Below, in pieces: positions 1-5,702 of a stretch of 6,107 bases of DNA. The position numbers and the translations under genes are program-made. The notes under the pieces were generated by a model. It did no database searches, was not told the origin of the DNA, and saw only the letters and a program-made list of their open reading frames with translations. Each line of letters opens with the position of its first letter. Positions within the stretch are counted from its first letter, which is position 1. The stretch covers positions 1 to 6,107 of the forward strand of contig CABUHP010000111.1 of NCBI GenBank assembly GCA_902491415.1. The letters run 5' to 3'. This stretch comes from an uncultured Collinsella sp. GTDB taxonomy: Bacteria; Actinomycetota; Coriobacteriia; Coriobacteriales; Coriobacteriaceae.

Positions 1-2
1 TA

Positions 3-18
3 ATATGAGAAAGCCATT
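3..18 (+). repeat. Left copy of 16-bp inverted repeat bracketing the IS
   Basis: ATATGAGAAAGCCATT reads inward here and is exactly the reverse complement of bases 1564-1579. The identity stops on both sides of the 16 bases. In transposase orientation this is the right-end (downstream) copy. The most likely role is a subterminal inverted repeat of the IS110/IS1111-type element. A split palindromic target is the alternative. Confidence 0.7.
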
Positions 19-39
19 GTCAATAGGCGTGTTTGTTCG

Positions 40-69
40 AGCCCGGTTTTAAACCGGGCTTTTTCGTTT
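40..69 (+). terminator. Rho-independent terminator reading rightward
   Basis: AGCCCGGTTT (40-49) pairs perfectly with AAACCGGGCT (51-60), giving a stable GC stem whose A/T centre opens into the loop, followed by TTTTCGTTT (61-69). The T-rich tail is only on the plus strand, so it stops transcripts entering from the left of the window. If the element extends to base 3, this terminator is IS-borne and would insulate the element from outside transcription. Otherwise it belongs to an upstream host gene; the TAA at 1-3 could be that gene's stop codon, but this cannot be shown. Confidence 0.8.
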
Positions 70-320
70 CCCGTCGGGAGGGCCCGCGCACGCTGCACGT
101 TTAGTCGACGCTTGCCTGGCAAGCTAATATCCGCGGGCTCTTGCGGGCGCGCTGCCGGCGGTCAGCCCGGTATGTCCGCGCACCCCACCGCATTTCGATT
201 CTCCGTCCGGCGCGCTCGTCCGAAACCAGTCTTGTTCACGGGCGCGGCCCTTGGGCTGCCCAAAAAGGGCTCGTGAACGCGCGCCGGCGATGCGTCGAGG
301 CGCGGGCCCTCCCGGCGGGA
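69..320 (-). ncRNA. Candidate structured RNA (bridge-RNA-like) beside the transposase
   Basis: This non-coding stretch begins 20 bases after the transposase stop and has nested complementarity. Bases 300-320 and 69-89 are inverted copies matching at 20 of 21 positions and could close the whole region. Inside, 279-287 pairs perfectly with 207-215 (9 bp) and 272-278 with 234-240 (7 bp). These two stems abut on one side and leave an 18-nt one-sided loop (216-233) on the other. Further arms are 134-139 with 164-169, and the dyad GCTTGCC-T-GGCAAGC at 110-124. IS110 recombinases use an element-encoded bridge RNA with internal loops that base-pair to donor and target DNA; in the IS1111 group it lies downstream of the gene, as here. 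RNA identity, strand and ends are inferred. DNA-level binding repeats are the alternative. Confidence 0.4.
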
Positions 321-322
321 GG
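308..322. repeat. Short GC hairpin just after the transposase stop
   Basis: CCTCCC (308-313) and GGGAGG (317-322) form a perfect 6-bp stem with a 3-base loop, 18 bases beyond the transposase stop codon. No T-tract follows on the minus strand, so it is not a convincing intrinsic terminator. It overlaps one arm of the long 69-89/300-320 inverted repeat, so the local and long-range folds would compete. Confidence 0.45.
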
Positions 323-339
323 CTTGTTGTCCGACGGGG

Positions 340-1449
340 TCAGCCGAGGGTCCCCTCCGCCCGGCGCCCGATCTCCCAGACCCAGCAGGCGAGCTCGCGC
401 GCGACGGCGGCGTTTGCCTTGCACGAGCTCTTGCCCGCCGCCGCCAGCGCCTCGCGGCGGCGGCAGAGCCTGGCGGTGCAGTCGTCGGCGCGCGCCCGGA
501 TCGCCGCGGGGACGTCCGCGCCGGGCGCCGGGGCCTTCGGGCGGGGCGTGCACGTCAGGTAGTGCCACGCCGACTCCACCAGTGCCGTCCTGGCGAGCCG
601 GTTGCCCGTCTTGGTTATCCCGCCGCGCCGCTCGGTCTCGCCGCTCGAGCGCTCCGACGGGACCAGCCCGCACCAGCTCGCGAAGGCCGGGGCCGTCCGG
701 AACCTCGTGAAGGAGCCCGCCTCGGCTGCGAGCCTGAAGGCCGTCAGGGTGTCGATTCCCTTGATGCAGGAGAGCGCCTCGACGGCCGGGCGCCACCGGT
801 CGGTCCGGGCGAGGGCGAGCACCTTCTTCTCGAGCTGCCGGCGGTCCGACTCCGCGCACCTCGCGGCCGTGACGTAGTACTCGAGCACGTCGCGCTGGGG
901 CCCCTCGAGCCTGATCCCGGATATCCACCTCCAGTGGGCGCGCGTCCAGGATCCCCTCCTCGTCCCGCCGGCGTTGCGCTCGTCCCAGACGTGGCCCAGC
1001 CTGATCAGGAACATGTTGAGGCGCTGCCTGGCGCGGCGGTACTCCACCGTGGCGTCGTCGAGGGCGCGGTCGAGGTCCCGGGCGGCCTCGACGGCCGCAT
1101 CGGGCAGCGGGACCTCCACGATGTTGTGGGTGGCGAGCATGCGGGCGATGAACTCGGCGTCGCGCCGGTCGTTCTTGCGGCGCGCGTCCGCCGCCGGCCT
1201 CTGCATCTTGGAGACGGCGGCCACGGCGCAGTCGAGGCCGAGCGCGCGCAGCTCGCGCGCCATGTGGAAGCCGGTGGGGCCGCTCTCGTAGCAGGCCCTG
1301 GGCTCCTCGAACCCGAGGGCCCACTCCGCGATCTCGGCGGCGTCCGTCCCGAAGTCACGGTGCACCACCTCGCCGGTGAAGGGGTTGAACGCCGCGGCGG
1401 CGACCGATCGCGCGTGGACGTCCAGGCCGATGGAGGTAACATGGGGCAT
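340..1449 (-). CDS. IS110-family transposase (DEDD recombinase)
   Basis: This 369-residue protein is the recombinase of the element. IS110 enzymes combine an N-terminal RuvC-like DEDD domain with a C-terminal Tnp domain carrying a serine nucleophile. The acidic tetrad is visible as D10 (GLDVHA), E55 (YESGPTGF), and D94 and D97 (KNDRRDAEF). A charged middle stretch (roughly 117-215) fits the family's coiled-coil linker. The C-terminal domain shows CIKGIDTLTAFRLAAEAGSF (228-247) and then LVPSERSSGETERRGG (262-277), where S268 or S269 is the likely nucleophile. Length is close to the usual 340-400, and no frameshift or internal stop is seen, so it looks intact. The ATG is preceded by GGGGAGGAGG with a 6-base gap. 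The same family includes Piv, a DNA invertase. Family assignment is firm; activity is inferred. Confidence 0.95.
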   Translation of the reverse strand: MPHVTSIGLDVHARSVAAAAFNPFTGEVVHRDFGTDAAEIAEWALGFEEPRACYESGPTGFHMARELRALGLDCAVAAVSKMQRPAADARRKNDRRDAEFIARMLATHNIVEVPLPDAAVEAARDLDRALDDATVEYRRARQRLNMFLIRLGHVWDERNAGGTRRGSWTRAHWRWISGIRLEGPQRDVLEYYVTAARCAESDRRQLEKKVLALARTDRWRPAVEALSCIKGIDTLTAFRLAAEAGSFTRFRTAPAFASWCGLVPSERSSGETERRGGITKTGNRLARTALVESAWHYLTCTPRPKAPAPGADVPAAIRARADDCTARLCRRREALAAAGKSSCKANAAVARELACWVWEIGRRAEGTLG

Positions 1450-1469
1450 GGGAAGCCTCCTCCCCGCAG

Positions 1470-1490
1470 GTGCGGTAAGGGCTACCGCAC
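1470..1490 (-). other. 8-bp perfect hairpin in transposase 5' region
   Basis: GTGCGGTA (1470-1477) and TACCGCAC (1483-1490) form a perfect stem with a 5-base loop, ending 5 bases before the GGGGAGGAGG ribosome site of the transposase. It could limit transposase translation or transcription from outside, or be part of an element-encoded RNA. It has no T-tract. The stem is certain; the role is inference. Confidence 0.6.
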
Positions 1491-1495
1491 GGGCC

Positions 1496-1580
1496 GATAC
1501 TCAAAGCCCATTGTGGCATCCCGAGCCCGCGGAAAGAAGCTGCGCCGCGGGGGAGGCGACCCAAATGGCTTTCTCATATC
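1496..1580 (-). other. Nested stem-loop at the transposase-proximal IS end
   Basis: GATA (1496-1499) pairs with TATC (1577-1580), AAAGCC (1503-1508) with GGCTTT (1567-1572), and ATT (1510-1512) with AAT (1564-1566), with one bulged C and a small internal loop. Further in, CCCGCGG (1526-1532) pairs with CCGCGGG (1545-1551). Between the lower and upper stems are two facing unpaired strands of about 12-13 bases (1513-1525 and 1552-1563). A stem with a two-sided internal loop is the general shape of bridge-RNA guide loops, so this is a second candidate region for an element-encoded RNA. It also carries the right-hand 16-bp repeat and overlaps the first codons of the downstream LuxR-type gene. Confidence 0.4.
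1564..1579 (-). repeat. Right copy of 16-bp inverted repeat bracketing the IS
   Basis: AATGGCTTTCTCATAT is the exact reverse complement of bases 3-18. It contains the ATG (1565) used by the LuxR-type gene, so that start codon is probably part of the mobile element. In transposase orientation this is the left-end (upstream) copy. Confidence 0.7.
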
Positions 1581-2752
1581 GTCTTGCGCGGCGTTTTGCG
1601 CAGACGCCCTGCCTGGCGCGCGCCGCCGCACTTTCCTATGCCATGGGCGTTCTGGTACAGGTGATCAACCACATGGTGATGCCTGTCGGTATTCCTCAGC
1701 AGGCTGTTCTGGTCGTCTGTGCGATCGCGCAGGTGGCGTTGCTCCACGGTGCCCGACGCGCCAAGCTGCGCGACGAGTCCGATCCCAACTTTGAACCCAG
1801 TGCTGCCGGGCTTTCGGTAGATGCTCTGGAATATGGCGCCAAGTGGCATGACGATCCCGAGGCAAAGGCGGCATTCCGTCGCGCCGTAGTTCGCCTGACC
1901 GTGGCGACGGCGTATCTTTCCAGCGTATTCGCCGCTCTCAACGCGGGCTTCACGACCCTGCATGCTGTCGGAGCCGTCGATTTGGGCGATTGGCCGCGCC
2001 TGCTGCTTGTCGTGAGCTCGTTGGTCGCTGGCGCACTATTTGACCTGCACGGCCGCTCGTATATGAATATCGGCATGACATGTGCCGCCATACTGTCCAC
2101 GCTTTCGTTCTTTGTGCTCATCGTCGATGGCAATGGCGGCAACGAGCTTGCTGCCACGATCATCTTTTATCTGGGCTCGGGCTTTTTCGTGGTGTTCTTT
2201 ACCACAAAATATGCCGCCGTCTCGCTCTATGCGCGCTGGTCATATTTTTGGCCGTGCATGGGTCGCGTCGTCAACAACGTGTGCTCGATGTTCGTGACGG
2301 CGCCGGCAGTGGCGATTATCTCGAGTCAAAATGTGCTGGCTGCGGTCGGTGCGGCGCTCGTGATGTTTGTGGGCATTGCGATTACGCTGCTGGGGCAGTT
2401 GGGGCAACGAGCCGATGATGCCGCGATGCGGGACGGACTGCCGCTTGCCACCGACGATCTTGGTGCAGATCTTGCGTCTGCATGCTCCGACCCCGAGCCC
2501 GTGGAGGCAGCGGAGCTCACGCCCGATGAGCGCCTCGATGCCTTCGTCGCCACCTTTGGGCTTACAGAGCGCGAGCGCGATATTCTTGAGGTCTTGGTCG
2601 TTTCGGACCAGAGCGTTCAGGACATCGCCACAACGCTCTTTCTTTCGCGCTCCACGCTCTATCGCCACATTTCCTCGATCAACAAAAAGGCCGGTACCGC
2701 CTCGCGCGTGGCTCTCATCAACTTCTTCTGGTCCTGGACACCCAAGGACTAG
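1565..2752 (+). CDS. Membrane-bound LuxR-family regulator, probably 5'-truncated by the IS
   Basis: This 395-residue frame encodes hydrophobic helices followed by a cytoplasmic DNA-binding domain. I count about eight membrane segments: near 18-40, 45-62, 109-134, 144-162, 166-187, 193-222, 236-253 and 256-277. A polar loop lies at 63-108 and a linker at 278-330. The C-terminal domain is LuxR/GerE type: LTERERDILEVL (333-344), then the helix-turn-helix SDQSVQDIATTLFLSRSTLYRHISSI (347-372). Coriobacteriia have many proteins of this plan, normally with twelve MFS-like helices. Here the polar loop resembles the link between MFS halves and is preceded by two helices instead of six, so about 110 residues seem missing. 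The ATG at 1565 has GGGGAGG eight bases upstream, but both lie in IS sequence. The ligand and target genes are unknown. Whether the remnant is made or works is uncertain. Confidence 0.85.
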   Translation: MAFSYRLARRFAQTPCLARAAALSYAMGVLVQVINHMVMPVGIPQQAVLVVCAIAQVALLHGARRAKLRDESDPNFEPSAAGLSVDALEYGAKWHDDPEAKAAFRRAVVRLTVATAYLSSVFAALNAGFTTLHAVGAVDLGDWPRLLLVVSSLVAGALFDLHGRSYMNIGMTCAAILSTLSFFVLIVDGNGGNELAATIIFYLGSGFFVVFFTTKYAAVSLYARWSYFWPCMGRVVNNVCSMFVTAPAVAIISSQNVLAAVGAALVMFVGIAITLLGQLGQRADDAAMRDGLPLATDDLGADLASACSDPEPVEAAELTPDERLDAFVATFGLTERERDILEVLVVSDQSVQDIATTLFLSRSTLYRHISSINKKAGTASRVALINFFWSWTPKD

Positions 2753-2933: not shown

Positions 2934-5702
2934 CTACAGCAGCTCGCCGTGGCGGGCAATGTAGCGGCGCTTTGCCAGCTGGGTGAGCGCGATATAGGCG
3001 GTAACGATGCCAATGAGCAGCCCAAAAAAGCTCGTGGGCAGCGGCATGAGGCCGAGCGCATCGGCGATGGGGCTTGCCGGCAGCCAGGTGACGAGCGCCA
3101 GACCCAGCACGGTGAGAACGCACAGTGCGGGCGCGGCGTGGTCGCGCGGGCGCGGCAGATGCGGGGAGCGCAGCATGTGGACCACGAGTGTCTGCGACCA
3201 CATGGACTCGACAAACCAGCCGCTCTGGAAGAGTGCGGCAAAGGTCGCCATACCCGCGACGTCGCCCGCGGCGGCAAGCTCGGGCCAGCTTGCGTCCACG
3301 GCGGCGGGGCACACGACAAAGAAGAGCGCGGCGAAGGTCACGATGTCAAACAGCGAGCTCACGGGGCCCAGCTCGAGCATAAAGCCCTTGATGGACGCGG
3401 CGTCCCAGGCACGCGGGCGGGCAGTCCAGGCGTCATCGACGGTGTCCCACGGCAGTGCGATGCACACGATCTCGTAGACCAGCGACAGCAGTACCAGCTG
3501 CAGGGCGCTCATGGGCAAAAACGGCAAGAACAGGCTCGCGACGGTCACGGACAGCACGTTGCCAAAGTTGGAGCTCACCGTGGTCTTGAGGTACTTGAGC
3601 AGGTTGCCGTAAGTGCGGCGGCCTTCGATGATGCCGCGCTCGAGCACGCCCAGGTCCTTCTGAAGCAAGATGATATCGGCGGATTCCTTGGCAATATCGA
3701 CGGCCGAATCGACCGAGATGCCGCAATCGCTCGCACGCATGGCGGCGGCGTCGTTGATGCCGTCGCCCATAAAGCCCACGGTGTGGCCGAGCATCTCGCG
3801 CATGACACGTACCAGGCGCGCCTTCTGCAGCGGCGAGAGCTTGGCGAAGAGGTGGGTTTTCTCGGCGCGCTCGGCAAGTTCGGCGTCATCGAGCGCATCG
3901 ATCTCGGAGCCGAGCAAGACGTTGCTCGCATCGATACCAATCTGCTCGCAGACGGTGGCGGCGACGCGGTCGTTGTCGCCGGTTAGGACCTTGACCGCCA
4001 CGCCCTTGGCCTCGAGGGTGGCGACGGCGCCCGCGGCACTTGCTTTGGGCGGATCGAGGAAGGCCAAAAAGCCCATCAGCACCATGTCGCACTCGTCGGC
4101 GATGCCAAACTCGCCCACGCAGCGCGGATTGGTCTTCTGCGCCACGGCAATTACGCGTAGGCCCTCGGCGTTAAGTCCGGCGATCTGCTTGCGAATCTGG
4201 GCGAGCTTCTCGTCGGTGAGCGGCTGAGCGATGCCATCGATCTCGACAAAGGAGCAGATCTCGAGCATTTCCTCGGCAGCGCCCTTGGTAACCATCTGGG
4301 TTTTGCCTTGGGCGTCGGCGACAACTACGCTCAGGCGACGGCGCGAGAAATCGAAGGGAACCTCGTCGACCTTGGTGTAGCGGTCGCGCAGGCTCTGGCC
4401 CAGCATGGAATCGGGTGCGACGGTCGAGGGCGTCACATCGGCACGGTCGATTACGGCCAGGTCGATAAGATTTTTGAGGCCGGTCTGGAAGAAGCTGTTC
4501 AAAAACGCATGGCGCAGCACGCGCGCGTCCTCGTTGCCATCGGTGTTGAGGTAGCGCTCGAGCACGATGCGGTCTTCGGTGAGGGTGCCGGTCTTGTCGC
4601 AGCACAGGACGTCCATCGCTCCGAGGTTTTGAATCGCCGGCAGCTCCTTGACGATAACCTGGCGACGGGCGAGGTCCTTGGCGCCCTGCGACAGGCTCGT
4701 GGTCACGATGACGGGAAGCATCTGCGGCGTGATGCCCACGGCCACGCTCGTGGCGAACAGCAGCGCGTCGATGACGTTGCCCTTGGTGGCGGCGTTGATG
4801 GCAAAGACGGCCGGCGCCATAACGAGCATCAGGCGCACCAGCAGCATGGAGACGCTCGAGACGCCGCGGTCAAACGCGCTCTTTTCGCCGCGCCCGTTGA
4901 GCATCTTGGCGATGCCACCCAGGTAGGTGTCCGAGCCGGTGGCAACGACAAGCGCCATGGCGGCGCCGTTTTGCACGGAGGTGCCGGTAAAGACGATGTT
5001 CTTGCAGGCAGAGAGTGGCAGTGCGGAGCCGTCGGCGCCCTCGACGACGGTGACGGCGGTGGTCTTCTCGACGGCCTCGCTCTCGCCGGTGAGTGCGGAC
5101 TCGATCACAAACAGGTCGCGCGCGGTGATGATGCGGGCATCTGCCGGCACCATATCGCCGGCAGAGAGACGGATTACATCGCCGGGGACGAGCTCGTCGA
5201 AGGGGATCTCGATGCGCTCGCCGTCGCGCAGGGCGGTGCAAGTGTTGGAGACCAGGTCCTTGAGGGCCTCGGCCGCATTGCCGCTGCGGGCTTCCTGGAT
5301 AAACTTCATGCCGCCCGATACCAGCAGCATGGTGCCGATGACGATGACCGTGGAGGGGTCGCGCTGCGGTTCGGGCACGGCGAGCACGTCGATGTAGAGC
5401 GAGACCAGTGCGAGCGCGGCGAGGATGCCGGCGAAGGGATCGATGAACGCGTCGGCGATGCGGCGGGCGAGCGTTTTGGTCGTTGCCTCGATGGTGTTGG
5501 GGCCGACGGCGTTCAGGCGCTCAGTTGCCTGCTCGACGGTGAGGCCGTTTGCCGTGGCGTCAAGCAGTACGAGGGCGTCCTCGGCACTATGGGTGGCGGC
5601 GAATATGGTGTTCTTGGACAGGCCGGTATGAGCGGCAGGGCGCGCCGTGCGGCGGCGCTTGGAGATGGCTTCGAGTACCGTGACGGTTTTGAGCATCAGC
5701 AT
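2934..5702 (-). CDS. mgtA: Magnesium-importing P-type ATPase, MgtA/MgtB (P3B)
   Basis: This 922-residue inner-membrane pump uses ATP to bring Mg2+ into the cell when the ion is scarce. The order of parts is complete: cytoplasmic N-terminus, M1-M2 (about 88-135), actuator domain with TGES (205-208), M3-M4 (about 285-335), phosphorylation site DKTGT with D369, nucleotide-binding KGA (473-475), TGD (574-576), GDGIND (646-651), then M5-M10 from about 708, including SSNFGNV and FQSGWFV. Similarity to E. coli MgtA runs end to end. Two intramembrane positions differ: the M4 motif reads TPQMLP (Q327) where E. coli has TPEMLP, and M6 reads VYEIVCIALPWD (E744) where E. coli has LYDVSQVAIPFD. The stretch before FQSGWF (about 798-822) is longer than in E. 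coli. The ATG at 5702 has AGGAGG five bases upstream; the second Met (M3) is spaced too far. Family identity is firm. Confidence 0.96.
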   Translation of the reverse strand: MLMLKTVTVLEAISKRRRTARPAAHTGLSKNTIFAATHSAEDALVLLDATANGLTVEQATERLNAVGPNTIEATTKTLARRIADAFIDPFAGILAALALVSLYIDVLAVPEPQRDPSTVIVIGTMLLVSGGMKFIQEARSGNAAEALKDLVSNTCTALRDGERIEIPFDELVPGDVIRLSAGDMVPADARIITARDLFVIESALTGESEAVEKTTAVTVVEGADGSALPLSACKNIVFTGTSVQNGAAMALVVATGSDTYLGGIAKMLNGRGEKSAFDRGVSSVSMLLVRLMLVMAPAVFAINAATKGNVIDALLFATSVAVGITPQMLPVIVTTSLSQGAKDLARRQVIVKELPAIQNLGAMDVLCCDKTGTLTEDRIVLERYLNTDGNEDARVLRHAFLNSFFQTGLKNLIDLAVIDRADVTPSTVAPDSMLGQSLRDRYTKVDEVPFDFSRRRLSVVVADAQGKTQMVTKGAAEEMLEICSFVEIDGIAQPLTDEKLAQIRKQIAGLNAEGLRVIAVAQKTNPRCVGEFGIADECDMVLMGFLAFLDPPKASAAGAVATLEAKGVAVKVLTGDNDRVAATVCEQIGIDASNVLLGSEIDALDDAELAERAEKTHLFAKLSPLQKARLVRVMREMLGHTVGFMGDGINDAAAMRASDCGISVDSAVDIAKESADIILLQKDLGVLERGIIEGRRTYGNLLKYLKTTVSSNFGNVLSVTVASLFLPFLPMSALQLVLLSLVYEIVCIALPWDTVDDAWTARPRAWDAASIKGFMLELGPVSSLFDIVTFAALFFVVCPAAVDASWPELAAAGDVAGMATFAALFQSGWFVESMWSQTLVVHMLRSPHLPRPRDHAAPALCVLTVLGLALVTWLPASPIADALGLMPLPTSFFGLLIGIVTAYIALTQLAKRRYIARHGELL

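Follow-up and report, generated by a model that had tools for sequence, protein, structure and literature searches.

Bridge RNA systems have been in print since 2024. The bridge RNA of IS621 was described for the IS110 group (Durrant et al. 2024, PMC11208160; Hiraizumi et al. 2024, PMC11208158) and seekRNAs were reported for the IS1111-family elements ISEc11, ISPa11 and ISKpn4 (Siddiquee et al. 2024, PMC11187229). The accessible parts of the two IS621 papers also describe IS1111 orthologues with donor nucleotides located in a multiloop. Elements of the IS1111 type are recognised by subterminal inverted repeats, usually of 11-13 bp, with short asymmetric extensions. Stem-loop insertion sites are discussed for the name-giving IS1111 of Coxiella burnetii, as they are below for an element of Collinsella; unlike for the latter, neither a guide RNA nor terminator targeting was found in the accessible part of the Coxiella paper (PMC2104537). 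What is new in the system described here is the lineage, the natural changes of the guides and the targets at terminator edges.

The window, that is the whole stretch of DNA analysed here, comprises 6,107 nucleotides from an uncultured Collinsella sp. (contig CABUHP010000111.1). It starts exactly at the right end of an insertion element, and the right flank of the element is therefore not visible. The element has the following features:

1-1584, minus strand: whole element of putative IS1111 type (1,584 bp), right end at 1 and left end at 1584
3-18, plus strand: right subterminal inverted repeat, a perfect 16-bp pair with 1564-1579
1564-1579, plus strand: left subterminal inverted repeat, a perfect 16-bp pair with 3-18
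18-23, minus strand: -35-like TTGACA in the right end
41-64, plus strand: terminator-like hairpin with a T-run, within the right end, read from the sequence
340-1449, minus strand: DEDD transposase/recombinase of the IS110 family, 369 aa, with Pfam domains PF01548 and PF02371 and NCBIfam NF033542 above cut-off

The ends were set by comparing copies of the element and by the empty site in relatives of one copy, the Collinsella aerofaciens locus L004, to the genomes of whose genus the left flank of the window is 97-98% identical. On the minus strand the right end reads ...CATATTA / ...TTGACAATGGCTTTCTCATATTA and the left end AGACGATATGAG... / AGACGATATGAGAAAGCCATT.... The L004 site is uninterrupted in eleven relatives as left flank, A and right flank (GACGACA-A-GTGGGC in ten, GACGCTA-A-GTGGTC in one), out of 13 matches besides L004 that include the divergent L147 and, without an aligned junction, L148. 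This empty site fixes the insertion point of the element. It follows that there is no target duplication and that the terminal A of the element is common to target and donor, the insertion chemistry being read from this one well-aligned empty site. When ATGAG is taken as the start of the repeat, the terminal extensions can be read as 7 bp on the left and 3 bp on the right, the values of the IS1111 family, and in relatives such as L010 and L012 the letters of the subterminal repeats vary together at both ends. TTGAC is present in every right end kept, but it belonged to the search pattern. In a circle closed with a single A, TTGACA would be 17 nt from GACGAT (1578-1583, left end), and the two could form a junction promoter at the joined ends, as described for related elements. 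The hairpin at 41-64 holds AAAAAGCCC on the transposase strand, near the element's own target; by eye, other elements have a hairpin of different sequence at the equivalent spot of the right end.

The residues D10, E55, D94 and D97 of the transposase are invariant among 11 sequences, as are G261, L262, P264, S268 and S269, and the GL-P----S(T)G motif of the IS1111 family is found as GLVPSERSSG. A profile of the 11 sequences matches parts of the IS621 and ISCro4 chains; a single-protein query of solved structures gave no match at E 0.001. NF033542 denotes the IS110 family as a whole, and 369 aa compares with 330-350 aa typical for IS1111. The probable assignment to the IS1111 type is based on the subterminal repeats, the downstream non-coding region, the GL-P----S(T)G motif and the duplication-free insertion.

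Relatives of the element occur in Collinsella and its neighbours. They were collected as 24 loci from named genomes and by genus, family and order searches of further genomes; with one row kept per flank pair, 56 insertions with 43 distinct non-coding regions were obtained, window included. No relative was encoded on viral contigs, where two stretches fit a peptide pattern, and among plasmid records seven gave short matches, covering at most 9% of the query.

The non-coding region downstream of the transposase gene corresponds to 1-339 (minus strand). Stop codon and TTGAC are 252-380 nt apart in 42 of the 43 distinct relatives; the exception, L015, has 528 nt and a stop in its transposase frame. 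The initial annotation of this region had listed an inverted repeat (69-89/300-320), two abutting stems (207-215/279-287 and 234-240/272-278) with an 18-nt one-sided loop at 216-233, a stem at 134-139/164-169, a dyad at 110-124 and TAATAT at 125-130, and had suggested a structured RNA. All of these repeats are present, the outer one being 95% complementary over 21 nt and the one-sided loop reading 5'-AAGACTGGTTTCGGACGA in the RNA. The RNA corresponds to the transposase strand, here the minus strand, on which 69-320 has a folding energy of -141 kcal/mol versus -119 +/- 5 in 200 shuffles (z -4.3). Conservation is the stronger test of the fold, and covariation across homologues, named beforehand as a check, was found in 17 aligned relatives. 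The consensus is made up as follows:

69-320, minus strand: core of the predicted bridge RNA (seekRNA), structure with covariation across 17 homologues, z -4.3
300-308, minus strand: P1 5' arm, pairs with 81-89, 5 of 9 pairs changed on both sides
81-89, minus strand: P1 3' arm, partner of 300-308
279-298, minus strand: P2 5' side, closes the target loop (279-287 with 207-215), 6 of 16 helix pairs changed on both sides
195-215, minus strand: P2 3' side, from the consensus fold of the 17 homologues
240-261, minus strand: P3 hairpin within the target loop, 3 of 8 pairs changed on both sides
188-192, minus strand: P4 5' arm, pairs with 132-136, almost invariant
132-136, minus strand: P4 3' arm, pairs with 188-192
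145-185, minus strand: P5 variable hairpin (176-185 with 145-152), 7 of 8 pairs changed on both sides
110-124, minus strand: P6 hairpin beside the donor guide, one-sided changes only

The consensus comprises 59 pairs, 25 of which are changed on both sides, with the pair kept, in at least one sequence. With shuffled partners, a control that leaves the relatedness of the homologues in place, this number was 12.3 +/- 1.9. Paired cells amounted to 97.1% in the 17 homologues versus 88.6% after shuffling, and partners slid by 1-3 columns gave 35-42% paired cells and 2-9 pairs changed on both sides. The weakest of five measures was the number of further pair types (44 versus 38.8), reached in 5 of 500 shuffles. 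In the window P1 continues into the outer inverted repeat (309-320/69-80). A small 5' hairpin has double changes in 3 of 5 pairs. Since P4 and P6 are nearly constant, covariation neither supports nor contradicts them. The target loop is retained in 11 chosen, more distant elements, where 12 of 41 pairs have both sides changed, a count without a shuffle control, and their donor part is predicted to fold differently. The structured RNA stands, and two of the listed arms do not belong to its conserved part: the stem 134-139/164-169 requires CGGGCT, found in 5 of 17 rows, the consensus pairing 132-136 with 188-192 instead, and the stem 234-240/272-278 requires CGTGAAC, found in 3 of 17 rows, and overlaps both target guides. 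Compensatory base pairs and indels among the homologues speak against a protein-coding reading of 69-320, which was set aside. Rfam gave no match at 69-320 up to E=1 and two chance matches elsewhere in the window.

The loops of this fold hold the segments compared with the insertion sites and element ends:

262-271, minus strand: right-target guide, RNA 5'-AGCCCUUUUU, the complement of the right flank's top strand (A-tract, then G/C)
233-236, minus strand: left-target guide, RNA 5'-AACA, letters equal to the left flank, from the comparison of 45 insertion flanks
229-232, minus strand: AGAC after the left guide, identical to the opening bases of the left end (AGACG)
125-130, minus strand: left-donor guide, RNA 5'-AUAUUA, equal to the right end ATATTA, variable letter in 43/43 and six letters in 40/43

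On its 3' side, the internal loop between P2 and P3 reads NNNN-AGACT in 48 of 53 rows. The left flanks read NNNN-AGACG, with AGACA in one distant group and AGAAG in L052; left ends were located by these three patterns, and the anchor of L088 was set by hand. The AGAC at 229-232 may represent handshake bases. Over 45 insertions the guide letters agree with the flank in 41, 31, 24 and 23 cases at -1, -2, -3 and -4, respectively. Summed over -1 to -3 this is 96 of 135 in register, against 21-46 in 15 other registers. Permuting the 18 left-guide types among groups gave p=5e-5 for -1, for -2 and for the sum, p=0.006 for -3, p=0.05 for -4 and nothing beyond. A natural guide switch can be followed in the clade of 58-59% identity, where all nine copies with the guide CACG are inserted at G, the one with CACA (L050) at A, the one with CAGC (L072) at C and the one with CTCA (L082) at CTCA. 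Letter -1 is mismatched in four of the 45 insertions (L064, L080, L081, L086). Two of these, L080 and L081 in genome G022, have a CTCA guide and are located at ATG/ACG sites that fit the CACG majority; they could have moved by an RNA supplied in trans, or the guide region could have been exchanged later.

Such agreement would also arise if the compared letters belonged to the end of the element and were inherited along with the RNA, instead of reflecting a choice of target, and letter -1 is indeed nearly fixed per RNA type (G in 11 of 12 G022 insertions). Against this reading, which we hold to be extremely improbable, the eleven relatives without the L004 copy already have its flank letters, and these are therefore host DNA. 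Moreover, the agreement drops with distance from the end, and the right flanks vary between copies (50 distinct of 53, so that some repeat).

The right-target guide occupies the 5' side of the internal loop, which is rich in T. Here 50 insertions with 27 guide types gave a mean local score of 5.98; permuted guides scored 5.24 (p=2e-4) and the opposite strand 3.77. The longest shared word had a mean of 5.76 letters, against 4.93 for permuted guides (p=5e-5) and 3.50 in random G022 DNA, and within clade A alone (17 insertions, 11 guides) the association had p=0.008. The best matches were AAAAGAGGCC in L002, AAAAGGGC in L001, AAAATTA in L094, AGCGAAA in L055, L060, L061 and L069, and eight letters in L092 and L093. 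The fit is poor in L010, L041, L053, L065 and L087, with words of three letters, and in eight more with four. A separate IS110 group of about 40% identity (L053, L055, L060, L061, L065, L069) has the ends ATATGA / AGACACTATG, the left guide CGAC and, in four of six, the AGCGAAA match in the right flank; the same pairing rules are seen there. In these four right flanks, copies of this 40%-identical element have landed at a long structured repeat starting GCGAAA, for which no Rfam match at the gathering threshold was obtained in the three flanks scanned (L055, L060, L061).

Loop bases and insertion-site flanks, the comparison put forward in the initial annotation, are thus related for both guides. 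The one-sided loop 216-233, together with 234-236, carries the left-target guide, and the T-tract at 262-271, in the neighbouring hairpin arm, is the right-target guide. In the RNA the right guide, the complement of the top (transposase) strand, precedes the left guide, so that segments for both target strands are found in the order of the IS1111 family.

TAATAT at 125-130 had been taken as a weak hint of a donor guide, and this hint has gained considerably. Beside P6 the RNA reads AUAUNA and the right end ATATNA, with N identical in all 43 distinct elements (T in 35, G in 5, C in 3), TGA and TCA lineages included. A letter other than T is found in L018, L052, the L053 group (four rows), L088 and L094, and the full six-letter match fails in L021, L086 and L096. 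N alone counts as evidence for the donor guide, since most other letters are fixed by the search patterns. For a right-donor guide the candidate is CGTC, the complement of GACG in the left end, which occurs in the 11 distant elements as well as in the window but is missing from part of clade A.

Based on these comparisons of sequences, the region is very probably the bridge RNA (seekRNA) of an IS1111-type element, likely to guide the recombinase by pairing with the target DNA and the joined element ends. The reading follows from a fold conserved with compensatory changes and from loop letters that track the flanks and the right end, and it supports the guiding of target and donor choice proposed at the outset. 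A region that is highly structured and directly downstream of the gene could instead be a conserved 3' untranslated region or attenuator of the transposase mRNA, acting on expression or stability and not as a guide. We regard this as very improbable, as it leaves unexplained both the agreement of loops and flanks (p=5e-5 and p=2e-4) and that with the element's right end (43/43).

In the proposed mechanism, the bridge RNA would be made from the transposase strand and bound by the recombinase. The joined ends of the excised circle (LD...ATATT-A-GACG...RD) would pair with the donor loop, and a target of the form NNNN-A-AAAAGG with the target loop; for a guide of the G022 type, the predicted target is CACG-A-AAAAGGAC. 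In the sequences compared, a multiloop segment follows the right end of the element, and one internal loop holds both target segments. The likeness to the IS1111 seekRNA systems, as far as the accessible part of that report goes (PMC11187229), extends to the subterminal inverted repeats, the non-coding region downstream of tnp, the GL-P----SG motif, the top-strand complement located 5' of the bottom-strand match, the target duplication not being seen and guides naturally changed among relatives. On the other hand, the predominant seekRNAs reported there are 82-96 nt (longer forms exist), whereas the conserved fold here is about 250 nt; the transposase exceeds the typical 330-350 aa; and a short A-tract/G target, often with terminator-like hairpins, takes the place of attC, REP and other seekRNA targets. 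With the bridge RNA of IS621, in the accessible parts of the two papers (PMC11208160, PMC11208158), the predicted RNA has a two-guide target loop, a donor guide and a comparable overall length in common. Unlike in IS621, it is located downstream instead of upstream, the guide order is reversed, a single A is common to target and donor instead of the CT core, and no right donor guide is assigned. The elements add a well-supported, naturally varied set of bridge RNAs from gut Actinobacteria, in which guide and target can both be read from genomes, and a compact system with single-A crossover, useful for testing programmable insertion.

Many right flanks open with an A-tract that leads into a G/C stem. 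AAA occurs within the first nine letters (the terminal A plus eight) in 46 of 53, and 16 of 53 have a perfect stem of at least 8 bp that begins within the first 14 letters. Such stems were found at 2.9% of 4,000 random positions of G022, a background from one genome for insertions from many genomes, in 0.4% of shuffled flanks and at 8 of 49 plain AAAAAG[GC] motifs in 400 kb of G022; by Fisher's test the excess has p=3e-12 versus random and 0.11 versus the motif. The threshold matters, as stems of at least 6 bp are found in 42% versus 24% of random positions and those of at least 5 bp in 72% versus 60%. Of 53 right flanks, 13 have a tRNA gene no more than 250 bp away, in every case on the opposite strand, compared with none of 46 left flanks (p=1.5e-4); random positions gave 4 of 1000 and the motif 3 of 49 (p=0.014). 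Two further right flanks, L015 and L080 from different genomes, adjoin an SRP RNA gene (16 loci scanned), and 26 of the 53 have a long stem, a tRNA gene or an SRP RNA gene.

The excess of long stems over random G022 DNA, together with the stem-loop target sites discussed in the accessible part of the Coxiella IS1111 paper (PMC2104537), may suggest that the recombinase recognises the shape of a hairpin, as DNA cruciform or terminator, rather than a sequence, and that the guides matter little. We consider this unlikely. The plain motif already yields stems at a rate not clearly different (p=0.11), the excess is small with laxer stems, the mean folding energy of 12 G022 targets (-20.5) is close to random (-19.2) and 14 of 53 flanks are without a stem of 5 bp. 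A strict hairpin requirement was rejected as unproven on the same motif comparison, laxer stems and folding energy. The A-tract motif alone accounts for much of the enrichment of stems and tRNA genes. Most naturally, the T-rich guide would pick A-tract/G sites, often terminator edges in a genome of 65% GC, and selection would remove insertions within genes. With guide RNA pairing as the preferred reading, elements would tend to settle by terminators of convergent genes, including those of tRNA and SRP RNA, because the right guide (T-tract plus G/C) resembles the U-tail of an intrinsic terminator. Targeting of terminator edges is a tendency only, and the window's own site lies within a gene. 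A literature search, with subscription journals largely outside its reach, found no description of terminator targeting by the IS110/IS1111 family, and the accessible parts of PMC13174815 and PMC9208149 gave no directly relevant result. Tentatively, and with somewhat more doubt than confidence, we propose that in the lineage of Collinsella and its neighbours a guide styled on the terminator U-tail serves as a generalist 'safe-harbour' guide, one RNA recognising the terminators of many genes, above all those of tRNA and SRP RNA, with letters drifting so that sister elements prefer different terminator edges. If a guide of about eight informative letters marks terminators in a GC-rich genome, an RNA-guided transposon may be generalist and mostly harmless.

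Two further sites bear on individual matches. At the site of L002, 14 relatives have the same terminator; L121, L126, L130 and L131 align over the whole left flank of L002, and their A-tract is uninterrupted and of slightly different length. All 14 have AAGGAGGCC where L002 has AAAGAGGCC, and one letter of the L002 match may therefore postdate the insertion. The perfect guide match of L002 holds for the DNA adjoining the element and may not hold for the original target. The window's own site was inferred from nine relatives (L149-L157), seven of which read CTCGCA-A-AATTTGC and two CGCGCA-A-AGTTTGC; its match to the right guide is limited to AAA or AAG. The site is located inside the reading frame of a LuxR-type gene, which was open about 97 codons further upstream in the three relatives checked (L149, L150, L155). 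The LuxR-type regulator gene of the window (1565-2752) is interrupted by the element, the left end of which provides an in-frame ATG (MAFSYRL-ARRFAQTP...); a shortened protein may therefore still be made.

Further along the window, a 32-nt inverted repeat (84%) at 2756-2844 lies between the regulator and a P-type ATPase gene. Its Rfam match to mir-7910 was far below the gathering score. Part of it, GGAACTATTCCACCGCAACTG, recurs in the Collinsella intergenic regions L123-L125, L132 and L134, changed in L124 and cut in L132 and L134, and therefore looks like a dispersed palindromic repeat. Short GGCAGC/GGCAAC-like repeats follow at 2846-2930, between the inverted repeat and the ATPase gene. The latter (2934-5702) encodes a P-type cation-transporting ATPase by its Pfam domains, is open over 922 aa and is unrelated to the predicted RNA.
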